DNA from: Mesorhizobium sp. M4B.F.Ca.ET.058.02.1.1 | GTDB taxonomy: Bacteria; Pseudomonadota; Alphaproteobacteria; Rhizobiales; Rhizobiaceae | Assembly: GCF_003952505.1 (NCBI RefSeq) | Contig: NZ_CP034450.1 | Span: 5,539,001 to 5,603,000 of the forward strand | Length of the DNA stretch: 64,000 nucleotides | Direction: 5' to 3' | Part shown: positions 40,268-46,729 of the stretch, piece by piece | Layout: every line of letters begins with the position of its first letter | How positions within the stretch are numbered: the first letter of the stretch is position 1 | The notes under the pieces: model-generated | Told to the model about the DNA's origin: nothing | Database searches by the model: none | What the model saw: only the letters and a program-made list of their open reading frames with translations | Position numbers and translations under genes: made by a program

Positions 40268-40411
40268 CCCTTCTCCCCGTTTACGGGGAGAAGGTGCCGG
40301 CAGGCGGATGAGGGGCGGCGCGAATGTCGGTGTTTTGCCTGCAATCCTGGCGCTGCCCCTCACCCGGTCGCTTCGCGACCACCCTCTCCCCGTAAACGGG
40401 GCGAGGGAAGG
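40268..40411. repeat. Long palindromic intergenic element (about 144 bp)
   Basis: Two arms of about 54-58 bases are imperfect inverted copies. Each contains the self-complementary core CTCCCCGTTTACGGGGAG or its variant, and they share GATGAGGGGC / GCCCCTCACC-type blocks. The spacer of about 30 bases holds a short central segment, and arm 2 contains an extra hairpin GGTCGC-TTC-GCGACC. It fills the gap between the nucleoside hydrolase stop and the convergent LysE pseudogene. This is a rhizobial-type mobile or REP-like palindrome without coding capacity. Confidence 0.8.
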
Positions 40412-40417
40412 TAGGCG

Positions 40418-41033
40418 CTACTTCGCCTTCGAGAAGGCCAGCCAGAGGCCGCCACCGACCAGGAAGCTGCCGCTGATGCGGGACATCAGCTTGACGCGGC
40501 TGGCCGACAGCAGCCGACCGGCGCGGCTTGCGGCAAGCGCGTAGGTCGAATCCGACATGGCGGCAAAGATCATCGCGGTCAGGCCCATGACCACGATCTG
40601 CAGCGTGTAGTTGCCCTGCGGCGCGATGAACTGCGGAAAGAAGGCGCCGAAGAACACCAATGTCTTCGGATTGCTGATCGCCACCAGGAAACCCTGCAGG
40701 AAGAAGCCGCCGCGCGGCTTTCCTGGCCGATCCGTCGGGGTTCAGCGTGCCTTTCGAACGGAACATCTGCACGCCCATCCAGATCAGATAGGCGGCGCCG
40801 ATCAGCCTGACCCATTCGAACCAGTGGCCCATGCCTGATATCAGCGTGTTGAGGCCGATGCCGACGATGGCGATCATGATGGCGAGGCCGGCCTGGGTGC
40901 CGGCGACGTTGGCAAGGCCGGCGCGCGCGCCGTGGCGGATGCTGTTGGCGATGATCAGCGTGACGGTCGGACCGGGCACCAGGATGATGACGATGCAGGC
41001 GACGACATAGGTGGCGTAAAGTTCCAGCGACAT
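40418..41033 (-). pseudogene. LysE/RhtB family amino-acid exporter, interrupted by a one-base frameshift
   Basis: The N-terminal half (MSLELYATYVVACIVIILVPGP, then GLANVAGTQAGLA) reads in one frame to LNPDGSARK, and the C-terminal half (AISNPKTLVFFGAFFPQF through SFLVGGGLWLAFSKAK) reads in another. Removing one base in the run at 40716-40721 restores a single frame of 204 residues, the normal size for LysE-family exporters with six membrane segments. All membrane helices are otherwise intact. It is either a recent inactivating insertion or a sequencing error. If intact, the product would export an amino acid such as lysine, homoserine or threonine. Confidence 0.8.
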
Positions 41034-42597: not shown

Positions 42598-43497
42598 TCA
42601 CGCGCCTGGGAGGGCTGCGTCGACATCTTTTGCCAACGGAATGGCCGGCTGCGCGCCCGGCTTCAGGCAAGCGAGCGAGCCGGCGGTGGCGGCGCGTGCG
42701 AGCGCCTGTTCGAGCGGCAGGCCCGACGACAGGCCGGCACCGAAATAACCGCAAAACGTGTCGCCGGCGCCGACCGTGTCGACCGGGGTTATCTCCAGCG
42801 CCGGCACGGTCAGGAACGTGTCGGGCGTCGCGGCCAACACGCCATCGCCGCCGAGGGTGACGACGATAGTACGCCCGGTCTTGCCGGCATAGTCGCGCAT
42901 CCGCGCGGGGCGATCACGGCCGCTGAGCGACAGCGCCTCGCCATAGAGATCGAATTCAGTCTCGTTGGCGACGGCATAGTCGGCCTTGCTTAGCAGGTTG
43001 GATGCCTCGGCGCGAAACGGCGCGGTGTTGAGCACGCTGATGGCGCCGGCCGCCCGCGCCGCCTCCAGCGTGGCGTCAACGGTCTGCAAGGGGATCTCGT
43101 GCTGCAGCAGCACGACGTCGCCCTTCTTGAGCTGTGCCTTGGCGATATCGCCGGGCAGCACCGAATCATTGGCGCCCGGGACCACGGCGATGACGTTTTC
43201 ACCGTCGGCGCCGACCAGGATCAGCGCCGTGCCGGTCGAAGCGAAGCTCTCGCCTATGCCGGAGAGATCGACCTTGCCAGTGAGCAAAGCCAGCGCCTCG
43301 GCGGCGAAGCTATCCTTGCCGACGGCGCCGACCATGCGCACCTTGGCGCCGGCGCGCGCGGCGGCCAGCGCCTGGTTGGCACCCTTGCCGCCGGGCGCGG
43401 TGGCGAAAGTGGAGCCACGCACCGTCTCGCCGGGCGCCGGCAAGCGGTCGACATTGGCGATGAGGTCGAGGTTGATGGAGCCGACAACGATAATCAA
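42598..43497 (-). CDS. rbsK: Ribokinase (PfkB family)
   Basis: A 299-residue carbohydrate kinase phosphorylating ribose to ribose-5-phosphate. PfkB motifs are VVGSINLDLIANVDRLP, GGKGANQALAAARAG and the catalytic DTVGAGDTFCGYF, with Asp as base. The start is a TTG at 43497: an AGGAGG site lies exactly six bases upstream, and no ATG or GTG fits the family N-terminus. It could use ribose released by the nucleoside hydrolase at 39322-40263. No ribose ABC transporter is nearby. Confidence 0.92.
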   Translation of the reverse strand: MIIVVGSINLDLIANVDRLPAPGETVRGSTFATAPGGKGANQALAAARAGAKVRMVGAVGKDSFAAEALALLTGKVDLSGIGESFASTGTALILVGADGENVIAVVPGANDSVLPGDIAKAQLKKGDVVLLQHEIPLQTVDATLEAARAAGAISVLNTAPFRAEASNLLSKADYAVANETEFDLYGEALSLSGRDRPARMRDYAGKTGRTIVVTLGGDGVLAATPDTFLTVPALEITPVDTVGAGDTFCGYFGAGLSSGLPLEQALARAATAGSLACLKPGAQPAIPLAKDVDAALPGA

Positions 43498-43587
43498 GAA
43501 GAGCCTCCTGCTGACTGCGCGGGAAGCTAGCCTGTAAGAGCGCCGCTTGCCAGCCCACAATAGGGTTCCGCGCCGGCTGCCACTTGC

Positions 43588-44070
43588 TCATTCGCAGCGC
43601 ACGGTGACCGTGCCCTGATAGGTGCCGGCCGGAAAGATGCCCGGCGACTTGGTGGCGGTGAGGTCGACCAGCATGGTGTGTGTGCCGTTGATCACCCGCT
43701 GCGGCGAACTGCCCGGAATGTCCGTGCCCGAGCCGTCGAGCCGGAAGACGGTGGCGAAGGTGACGTTGGTGTCGCCGCCGCTTGGAGCCGAAGTGAAGGC
43801 GATCGGCGCCGGCGCGGAAACCGAAAAGCAGTCGAGCAGGTTGAGGATCGAGCACAGCAGCGAGCTTGCGGTGATCGTGGCGCCGGCGCTCGACCCGCCC
43901 GCCTGCTTGGAGCCGAGGATGTTGATGGCGGGGTTCGACGTCATCGTTCCCGAGGCGCCGATCACGATCGTGCAGGTGCCGACGATCGCCGCCTGCGCGG
44001 GAAAGCAGAGGCCGGCAAGTGCTGCCACCGCAAGCAGGGCGCGGCTATTTCTTCTTCTTTTTCCTGCCAT
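43588..44070 (-). CDS. Small secreted beta-rich protein, pilin-like (paralog B)
   Basis: A 160-residue protein with a basic N-terminus and signal peptide (cleavage near AQA at about 27). The mature part is Gly/Ser/Thr-rich and beta-predicted. It shares with the protein encoded at 44967-45437 an N-terminal TCTIxI...GTMT block (Cys33) and the C-terminal GTYQGTVTVRCE (Cys159). The final strand resembles those of DUF4402, spore-coat-U and chaperone-usher pilin domains. Two further cysteines lie in SLLCSILNLLDC. It overlaps the gene at 44045-44584 by 26 bases. Subunit function is inferred. Confidence 0.7.
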   Translation of the reverse strand: MAGKRRRNSRALLAVAALAGLCFPAQAAIVGTCTIVIGASGTMTSNPAINILGSKQAGGSSAGATITASSLLCSILNLLDCFSVSAPAPIAFTSAPSGGDTNVTFATVFRLDGSGTDIPGSSPQRVINGTHTMLVDLTATKSPGIFPAGTYQGTVTVRCE

Positions 44071-44584
44071 CGCCGTTCGTACCTCTGATGCTCCAGCCTT
44101 CGTTGGCCCATCCGGCCGAAGCGGTTGCGGGAGCGGGAGCGGCCGTGGGACCGGCGGCAGCCACGCTGCCCGTCGTCTGGCCGTCGGCGCCGAGGCCCAT
44201 CTTGAGCAGCTTCAGTTCCATCTGCAGGCGCTCGACCTCAAGCTCGTAGAGGCGGCTGCAATCGACACGCTTCGGCGTCCGACCGATCGGGACCACCACG
44301 CGGCCATAGGTGGCGATGTCGCTGTTCGACTGGCTGCTGTTGTTGCCTCTGATGACGCCGACGTCGAGATAGGCGCCACTGCCTGAAACCGAGGAGCGGC
44401 AGGTGGTGCCGTCGGAAGCATGCACCTCGTCCTGGCCCTGGGGAAGGGTGACACCGGGCAGGGTGAAACCCGTCTGGTTCTGGTTCAGGTTCAGTATGTC
44501 CTCGGCAAACCCCGAACTCACGACCGCCAAAGCGGACAGCAAGGAGAGGGTCAGGACCTGCGATGTCCGAAGAACTTTCCGCAT
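44045..44584 (-). CDS. Secreted hypothetical protein of the pilin-like cassette
   Basis: A 179-residue protein with a signal peptide (MRKVLRTSQVLTLSLLSALA, cleavage near FAE at about 27). The mature region has a Asn/Gln-rich start, a beta-like domain with two cysteines (GTTCRSSVSGSGAYLDVGVI; RVDCSRLYE) and a helix ELEVERLQMELKLLKMG. A Pro/Ala linker follows, and the protein ends in six basic residues. The helix could mediate oligomerisation. I do not recognise a named family. It overlaps both neighbours by 26-34 bases, so it belongs to the same translationally coupled operon. Confidence 0.65.
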   Translation of the reverse strand: MRKVLRTSQVLTLSLLSALAVVSSGFAEDILNLNQNQTGFTLPGVTLPQGQDEVHASDGTTCRSSVSGSGAYLDVGVIRGNNSSQSNSDIATYGRVVVPIGRTPKRVDCSRLYELEVERLQMELKLLKMGLGADGQTTGSVAAAGPTAAPAPATASAGWANEGWSIRGTNGDGRKKKKK

Positions 44585-44943
44585 ATCTGTGCCCTTATCT
44601 GCGTCTGCTCGCTTGGAAAGGGGATACTCTCGGTACAGATACGCACTTTACGCTCGGTCGCGCCGTCGAACGGCACGACCACCAGAACCGGACGCGATGC
44701 CTGGCCGGCCAGAAGAAAGGCGCTGGGCGTGATCCTGGCGGCTATCGGCTGGAAATCCTGGTCGTAGACATGAACCTCGACGCGAATTCGCTGGTCGTAC
44801 GGGTTGCCCGGAAAGACGCGGACGGCGAAAGCATCGGTGAACGACCTCACCTCGCCGCGCATCGGCGTCATCGACTGGCCCGTCGCGGCAAGGGGAGACA
44901 ACACGACGGCCAGCGCCGCCGTCAGAATTCCAACCTTTTTCAA
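44551..44943 (-). CDS. Single-domain PapD-like periplasmic chaperone
   Basis: A 130-residue secreted protein. The start is a TTG at 44943, chosen because AAAGGAG lies seven bases upstream and it begins a proper signal peptide (KKVGILTAALAVVLSPLAA). The mature part resembles only the N-terminal immunoglobulin domain of pilus chaperones: FAVRVFPGNPYDQRIRVEVH, YDQDFQPI and the FLLAGQASRPVLVVVPF strand. The second domain of classical chaperones is missing. Cys pairs lie in RICTES and AQICGK. It is encoded between two secreted proteins and a pilin-like one, with no usher. Confidence 0.65.
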   Translation of the reverse strand: MKKVGILTAALAVVLSPLAATGQSMTPMRGEVRSFTDAFAVRVFPGNPYDQRIRVEVHVYDQDFQPIAARITPSAFLLAGQASRPVLVVVPFDGATERKVRICTESIPFPSEQTQIRAQICGKFFGHRRS

Positions 44944-44966
44944 AGACCGCTCCTTTCGCGAGAAGG

Positions 44967-45437
44967 CTATTCGCAGCGCAGTGTGACGGTTGCCTGGTAG
45001 TTGCCGGCGGAGAAGCGGTTCGAGCCGCTCTTGGTGCCGGCAAGATTGACCGCGACCGTCGATGTGCCCGGTACCGTCAGCGCGGTCGCGGTGCCGGTCT
45101 CGGCAATGGTCTGCGCGCCGGAGGTGGCGAAGGTCGGGGTCCATGTGGTGGCCGTGACATCTGAGGCCGGCACGGTGGTGGTCGTGACCGGGTCGACGCT
45201 GAGCGTGACGCCGCCGGTGGTATCCACCTGGGCGCTGCCGGCCGAACCGCCTGCATTGTGGGAGCTCAGCGACTGAAGATTGGTGCTGACGGTCATCGTG
45301 CCGTTGGAGTTGATCGTGATCGTGCAGGTCGCGGTGATCGTGCCGTCGAACAGCACGTTTCCGGTGGCTGCGGATGCGGTCTGGTCGATGCAGGCGACCA
45401 GCAGTGCCGCACCGATGACGGCGCGAAAGAACTTCAT
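44967..45437 (-). CDS. Small secreted beta-rich protein, pilin-like (paralog A)
   Basis: A 156-residue protein with a signal peptide (cleavage near ASA at about 23). The mature part is almost entirely Thr/Ser/Val/Gly beta sequence. Cys38 (TATCTITINSNGTMTV) and Cys155 (GNYQATVTLRCE) are at matching positions to paralog B and could form one disulfide. It is the first gene of the cassette, preceded by AGGAGGG and an AT-rich region that probably holds the promoter. An abundant pilin- or coat-like subunit is the best guess. Confidence 0.7.
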   Translation of the reverse strand: MKFFRAVIGAALLVACIDQTASAATGNVLFDGTITATCTITINSNGTMTVSTNLQSLSSHNAGGSAGSAQVDTTGGVTLSVDPVTTTTVPASDVTATTWTPTFATSGAQTIAETGTATALTVPGTSTVAVNLAGTKSGSNRFSAGNYQATVTLRCE

Positions 45438-45678: not shown

Positions 45679-46584
45679 TCAGGACGAGACCTGTCCCGCC
45701 TCCCAGCCGAGGATGGCACGCTTGCGGGTCAGGCCCCAGTGGTATCCGGTGAGGGCGCCGGACTTGCCGAGCGCGCGGTGACAAGGCACGACGAACGACA
45801 TCGGATTGGCGCCGACCGCGGCACCCACCGCGCGGCTGGCGCTCGGCGCGCCGATGCTGGCGGCGATCGAGGAGTAGGTGCAGGCCTTGCCCATCGGGAT
45901 GCGCAAGAGGGTTTCCCAGACGCGCAACTGGAAGTCGGTGCCGATCATCACCACGCGCAGCGGCTGGTCGGCGCGCCACAGTCTTGGATCGAAGATGCGC
46001 GCGGCGTAGGGCGCTGTAGAGCTCATGTCCTCGACATAGGCCGCGTTCGGCCAGCGGCCGGACATGTCGGCGAAGGCCGCGCGCTCGCCGCCGGGATCGT
46101 TGAAGGCGAGGCCGGCAAGCCCGCGGTCGGTGACCATGATCAGGGCGATGCCGAAAGGCGAGATGTGATAGCCGTAGCGGATGGTGAGGCCGGCGCCGCG
46201 CGTCTTGTAGTCGCCCGGCGACATCGCTTCATGGGTGACGAAGAGGTCATGCAGCCGTCCCGGGCCCGACATGCCGAGCTCGAACGAGGTTTCGAGCAGC
46301 GGCATGCCGGAATCGAGCAGCCGGCGCGCATGGTCGAGCGTGACCGCCTGCAGAAAGGCCTTGGGCGACAGGCCGGCCCAGCGGGTGAACAGCTTCTGCA
46401 GACCCGTCGGCGTCTCGCCGACCTCCTCGGCCAGATCCTCGAGCGAAGGTTGGTCGCGATAGTCGAGACTGATCTTCTCGATGGCGCGGCGCACGACCTC
46501 GTAGTCGCTGCCCTTGGGAGTAATTTCGTTCTCAAGGATCGCGGTCGGTTTCATCTGCGTATTCATGGTCATCTGGGCGTTCAT
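45679..46584 (-). CDS. Ada-like regulator: AraC HTH fused to methylated-DNA-cysteine methyltransferase
   Basis: A 301-residue protein combining an AraC-type helix-turn-helix (about 25-115; LEDLAEEVGETPTGLQKLF, then SFELGMSGPGRLHDLF) with an O6-alkylguanine methyltransferase domain containing the acceptor Cys268 in VVPCHRALG. The N-terminal zinc/phosphotriester-sensing domain of E. coli Ada is absent: no cysteine cluster precedes the HTH. It should repair alkylated guanine; transcriptional activation is inferred. The ATG at 46584 has AAGGAGAT eight bases upstream. A terminator follows. Confidence 0.88.
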   Translation of the reverse strand: MNAQMTMNTQMKPTAILENEITPKGSDYEVVRRAIEKISLDYRDQPSLEDLAEEVGETPTGLQKLFTRWAGLSPKAFLQAVTLDHARRLLDSGMPLLETSFELGMSGPGRLHDLFVTHEAMSPGDYKTRGAGLTIRYGYHISPFGIALIMVTDRGLAGLAFNDPGGERAAFADMSGRWPNAAYVEDMSSTAPYAARIFDPRLWRADQPLRVVMIGTDFQLRVWETLLRIPMGKACTYSSIAASIGAPSASRAVGAAVGANPMSFVVPCHRALGKSGALTGYHWGLTRKRAILGWEAGQVSS

Positions 46585-46729
46585 GGCAATATCTCCTTGA
46601 CCGCGAATATCGGTCTTCCCGCCCTTTGCCACCACCCGAAACTTGCCCTGCTGCCGCCCGCCCGCGACGTGCTTGAATTCCTACGGCAAGGCGTGGAAAG
46701 CCGGCCGCCGGATAACGCAAATTCGACAG

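Follow-up and report, generated by a model that had tools for sequence, protein, structure and literature searches.

In the textbook view, pilus biogenesis through donor-strand exchange requires both a two-domain chaperone and an usher. In such chaperone–usher systems, the N-terminal domain of the usher binds domain 1 of the chaperone, and that same domain inserts its G1 strand into the groove of the subunit. The present analysis concerns a cassette of four small genes, A to D, found in a 64,000-nucleotide stretch (the window; contig NZ_CP034450.1, positions 5,539,001 to 5,603,000) of a Mesorhizobium chromosome that forms a single contig of 6.46 Mb. One reading, to which we give about an even chance, is that the cassette is a minimal system for donor-strand complementation without an usher. 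No such cassette was described among the papers that a literature search listed. In window coordinates, its genes are:

44967..45437, minus strand: gene A, 156 amino acids, pilin-like secreted subunit
44551..44943, minus strand: gene B, 130 amino acids, single-domain PapD-like chaperone with a TTG start behind GAAAGGAG
44045..44584, minus strand: gene C, 179 amino acids, secreted protein with a phrog_37374 core
43588..44070, minus strand: gene D, 160 amino acids, second pilin-like subunit and paralogue of A

The cassette resembles chaperone–usher pili (FimC/PapD) in the PapD domain-1 fold predicted for B, in the equivalents of Arg8 and Lys112 among close relatives of B, and in a pilin-like A with an N-terminal strand motif that D lacks, as a tip subunit would. 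It differs in having no detected usher, no chaperone domain 2, and an extra core protein, C, in the position of A's cysteine pair (Cys38/Cys155), and in occurring in phages. Some A homologues are named 'Spore coat protein U domain-containing', a likeness to archaic (sigma) chaperone–usher pili; among 116 homologue rows, six have UniRef names that start with 'Spore coat protein U'. Unlike the archaic systems, however, the cassette has neither an usher nor a two-domain chaperone, and A matches no spore coat protein U (SCPU) model (PF05229); the SCPU search of the window genome had no positive control.

Gene organization and linkage

The initial annotation had proposed four small, mostly overlapping minus-strand genes, with no usher, that encode two paralogous secreted proteins, a chaperone reduced to the first PapD-type domain, and a further secreted protein, and had suggested that they could form a reduced surface-fibre or coat system. 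The gene layout and the paralogy are borne out, the genes are conserved together, no usher was found in the window genome or the loci searched, and B is predicted to adopt a PapD domain-1 fold; a fibre or coat exported without an usher is a possible reading. B overlaps C by 34 nucleotides and C overlaps D by 26, with a gap of 23 nucleotides between A and B, and all four proteins carry signal peptides as judged by eye. In tblastn, D aligns with A residues 34–156 at 35% identity, and the two paralogues share a TCTI/GTMT start and a YQxTVTxRCE end. The predicted model of B corresponds to PapD domain 1. Searches of all four proteins against Pfam, NCBIfam, and PHROGs gave nothing above cut-off except phrog_37374 for C.

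Linkage was assessed in a scan of named genomes with B, from which the best 80 of 107 matching loci were kept; B, as the query, is present in these by construction, and the profiles were partly built from them. C is found in 80 of the 80 and the order A-B-C in 79, the exception (L083) being cut by a contig end. A search of the window genome with the usher model PF00577 gave no hit, and its E. coli control was positive. An usher profile likewise found none in 109 cassette loci (the 80 named and 29 further, with flanks of at most 6 kb and many shorter), a search in which canonical loci were detected as a positive control.

Pilin-like subunits A and D

A carries the segment GNVLFDGTI ahead of its first conserved cysteine, Cys38, and ends in a strand, GNYQATVTLRC, that includes Cys155. 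GNVLFDGTI resembles the strand donated by chaperone–usher pilins of the FimA type. Both cysteines are kept in 24 of 24 A-family members of a broad set. D has no such N-terminal segment, its signal peptide being followed by AIVGTC. Across loci, a regular expression for the donor-strand motif matches 73 of 82 first subunits; in the remaining nine, a signal-peptide cysteine had been mis-picked. It also matches 6 of 80 later subunits, and three of these matches are genuine.

Within the window genome, A and D are the sole matches to the A profile. Against the PDB, the profile matched 10ss_a, which has a pilin-like start, from end to end (E 1e-4); a profile restricted to alphaproteobacteria gave a nanobody at E 0.0096 and 10ss at E 0.049. 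Entry 10ss contains a 179-residue chain in 14 copies with a pilin-like beginning, and its deposited name, an iron transporter, looks wrong.

Single-domain PapD-like chaperone B

The model of B comprises a single domain of 130 amino acids without the two-domain boomerang layout, and there is no PapD_N match in the window genome. Its key residues (numbered as in P0001, start residue omitted) are R28 and K122, the equivalents of Arg8 and Lys112 as read from range ends, and the pair Cys102/Cys120. R28 is, by eye, the seventh residue of mature B. All 27 close relatives have a basic residue at both positions. The cysteine pair is present in the same 27 and in all 20 members of a broad set, with 17 residues between the two cysteines in 26 of the 27.

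By fold and by sequence, the nearest neighbors of B are the FGL chaperones Caf1M and DraB, and the F1 cysteine of B aligns with that of DraB. FGL chaperones have, according to PMC4133393, a disulphide between cysteines on the F1 and G1 strands and F1–G1 loops averaging 24 residues. B shares the cysteine pair on F1 and G1, but it is one-domain and, with 17 residues between the cysteines and no N-terminal extension by eye, lacks both the long F1–G1 loop and the extension of the class. A phmmer search of B against the PDB returned only eIF4E rows (E 0.3–0.4), which were rejected.

Protein C

The core of C (residues 42–124) corresponds to phrog_37374 (E 4.3e-13 for P0003), as it does in 12 of 12 members tested, and Cys62 and Cys109 are present in all 12. 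The initial annotation had described a protein with a coil and a polybasic tail. The tail, KKKKK, is there, while most of the more distant relatives lack it and the coil corresponds to a low-confidence helix (residues 109–131). C is a conserved core component of the cassette; its polybasic tail is not. The C profile found nothing in the PDB below E 1.4, and a match of one phage C to OEP (TolC) at E 0.065 was not accepted as evidence.

Conservation in bacterial genomes

Homologues of B occur in 84 of 146 congeneric genomes. The 80 loci come from Mesorhizobium, Aminobacter, Nitratireductor, Aureimonas, Fulvimarina, and other Rhizobiaceae and Hyphomicrobiales, with A-B-C units in tandem in Nitratireductor soli (three) and N. 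pacificus (two). The cassette is rare at greater taxonomic distance: it was found in 8 of 397 genomes across the order and 9 of 398 across the phylum (in each case five from the same genus, its own genome included), and in 2 of 385 across the class (own included). Distant loci retain the trio, as A-B-C in L097, L098, L099, L114, and L129 and as B-C-A in L130–L132.

Across all loci read, 131 of the 132 with C also have B, a count that includes repeats of the same region; the exception, which speaks against strict linkage, is an Erwinia phage locus (L123) with C and neither A nor B. When the neighbors of 25 loci were clustered, A, B, and C themselves formed the largest clusters, several others looked like opposite-strand open reading frames, and no further recurrent partner appeared beyond shared chromosomal synteny.

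Proposed assembly without an usher

The fold of B and the motif of A tie the cassette to donor-strand chaperone systems. In the proposed mechanism, A and D would reach the periplasm as subunits with an incomplete immunoglobulin (Ig) fold. B, cut down to its subunit-binding domain, would fill their open groove with its G1 strand, and R28 and K122 would grip their C-terminal carboxylate. A chain could then form as the N-terminal strand of one A enters the groove of the next, with D, which would have a groove and no N-terminal strand, at the tip. C would be disulphide-bonded, with a short coil, and may replace the usher by serving as a base or assembly platform in the periplasm or at the outer membrane; its constant place beside B, which it often overlaps, makes it the obvious candidate. 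Where there is no usher, domain 2 would lose much of its value, and one domain might be enough.

This reading is supported by gene linkage, the predicted fold of B, the cysteine pairs, the presence and absence of the donor-strand motif, and the lack of a detected usher. Disulphide bonding, strand exchange, chain formation, a place at the surface, and the part played by C are inferred. If it is true, the minimum for donor-strand assembly would be half a chaperone together with a different third protein and without an usher, and usher-free assembly of donor-strand polymers would become a testable question with three or four small genes.

Several observations weigh against it. No Pfam pilin or SCPU model matches A, and the deposited name of its PDB match, 10ss_a, is 'Ferrous iron transporter B'. 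In the broad set of B, position 28 is arginine in 9 of 20 members and non-basic in the others, and position 122 is basic in 15 of 20. VAP/MSP domains score almost as well as DraB for B. The alphaproteobacterial-only B profile finds no chaperone by sequence in the PDB, where alpha-actinin rows begin at E 0.25, and compares weakly with canonical chaperones (P 0.004–0.022; subgroups 0.013–0.5). Loss of the second domain would also abolish the cleft of known chaperones. The AlphaFold model of C is unusable (predicted local distance difference test score 50.9; only a hairpin and the 109–131 helix), which leaves linkage as the ground for guessing its role, and the fibre itself is hypothetical.

A rather unlikely alternative is that B helps A and D to fold, and that these then act with C, in monomeric form or in small complexes, in the periplasm or at the outer membrane, forming no polymer. 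Failure to find an usher in the window genome or the 109 loci is consistent with this, as are the absence of a channel among the recurrent neighbors of the 25 loci and the single A of the phage trios. Such a role leaves unexplained the N-terminal strand motif that A has and D has lost, a split that makes sense only if subunits join in order. A 262-amino-acid second subunit on a Vibrio nigripulchritudo plasmid (L122 2760–3554), which the A profile did not detect, also looks by eye like a tip adhesin, with an extra N-terminal domain and a pilin-like domain.

Phage and plasmid copies

At E 0.1, a tblastn search with C retrieved 189 records of phages, 183 of them Vibrio and six Klebsiella, Raoultella, and Stenotrophomonas. 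The C of Vibrio phage pVp-1 retrieved 183 (180 Vibrio and three Erwinia), and its B retrieved 179, all Vibrio. In pVp-1, K437a, and vB_VhaS-tm, genes A, B, and C are consecutive, with one A per trio, and in all three Vibrio phages read they lie directly behind a large gene:

L120 15–2600: large phrog_10818 gene, directly upstream of the trio
L119 830–3142: large phrog_10818 gene, directly upstream of the trio
L121 129–2585: large phrog_10818 gene, directly upstream of the trio

Genes for a holin and an endolysin come after the trio in pVp-1. Such a placement, between a large virion-type gene and lysis genes, suggests late action on the host envelope.

An IMG/VR scan gave 12 loci. Four match known Vibrio phages in length, and the remaining eight include near-copies. 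Eleven of the 12 have A-B-C; L143, which starts 345 bases ahead of C, has B-C. The Vibrio phage B and A genes belong to phrog_25455 and phrog_25895, and marine contig L138 matches both. The A and B of the window fall short of phrog_25895 and phrog_25455 themselves and are tied to them by profile comparison and gene order. Alphaproteobacterial profiles compare with those of Vibrio phages and marine contigs at 4.5e-12 and 2e-10 for A and at 1.5e-16 and 1.3e-13 for C, against cross-type controls of 0.08–0.93. For B, the links run through the marine contigs (alpha–marine 2e-5, marine–Vibrio phage 1e-5), direct comparisons not being significant alone (alpha–Vibrio phage 0.38, alpha–gamma 0.07). Profile comparison thus supports homology of A and C between alphaproteobacteria and phages, with B linked through the marine contigs.

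The presence of the cassette in rhizobial chromosomes, a Vibrio plasmid, and marine phages suggests an undescribed route of envelope protein assembly. More tentatively, A-B-C may be an envelope assembly system in its own right, common to chromosomes of proteobacteria, a plasmid, and tailed phages, in which a half-size chaperone and platform C suffice for donor-strand-linked chains and which phages use on the host envelope. The donor-strand reading, if true, would supply a function for phrog_37374, phrog_25455, and phrog_25895, three families of phage proteins.

It is also conceivable, if improbable, that the cassette is an envelope-modifying phage module, a late cargo such as a bar to superinfection, that bacteria have domesticated or share with phages through plasmids. 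The uniform assignment of C to phrog_37374, the many Vibrio phage records with C and B, the position of the trio next to phrog_10818 and lysis genes, and the plasmid copy favor such an origin. The cassette nevertheless has a conserved chromosomal neighborhood in Mesorhizobium and the nearest genera, where no phage genes were seen, and a phage origin is silent on protein function and compatible with donor-strand assembly.

On the V. nigripulchritudo plasmid, the order is A, the 262-amino-acid protein, B, and C, followed by an EAL-domain gene. In marine viral contigs L137, L138, L142, and L144, two more secreted proteins are encoded just upstream of the trio (L138 2406–3858), one with a weak match to phrog_20531. 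The C-like gene of Erwinia phage pEp_SNUABM_01 (L123 3989–4366) lies among tRNA genes.

Distribution of ushers

Of 146 genomes of the genus, 31 have a PF00577 match: 21 among the 84 that carry B and 10 among the 62 that lack it (Fisher P 0.22). In G054, G038, and G094, the three genomes in which the positions of cassette and usher on one contig were compared, the usher is about 100–110 kb away. Among eight distant cassette genomes, an usher match at E 0.001 was found in three and above cut-off in two, none of them inside the stretches read around the cassette. Median ratios of nonsynonymous to synonymous substitution rates (dN/dS) are 0.246 for A (55 pairs), 0.153 for B (55), 0.220 for C (53), and 0.218 for D (55).

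That the cassette is the remnant of a decayed chaperone–usher operon or is served by a remote usher is very improbable: A does resemble chaperone–usher pilins, a true usher system with a two-domain chaperone and SCPU-like pilin exists in some Mesorhizobium genomes, and two of the eight distant genomes have an usher above cut-off, but 63 of the 84 cassette genomes have none, Nitratireductor carries tandem A-B-C units, B is single-domain in all groups read, we know of no counterpart of C in chaperone–usher operons, and dN/dS of 0.15–0.25 together with gene linkage speaks against decay.

One such canonical operon, with an SCPU-like pilin, a two-domain chaperone, and an usher, lies apart from the cassette in another Mesorhizobium genome (L145 3661–7285).

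Neighboring genes in the window

The cassette is flanked by an Ada-like gene (45679–46635) and a ribokinase-like gene (42598–43560), both identified by eye. Further along, a LysE-family-like exporter (40281–41033 and 40418–40684, minus strand) is, by eye, apparently split across two frames, its N-terminal part in one open reading frame and its C-terminal part in an overlapping one in the other frame.
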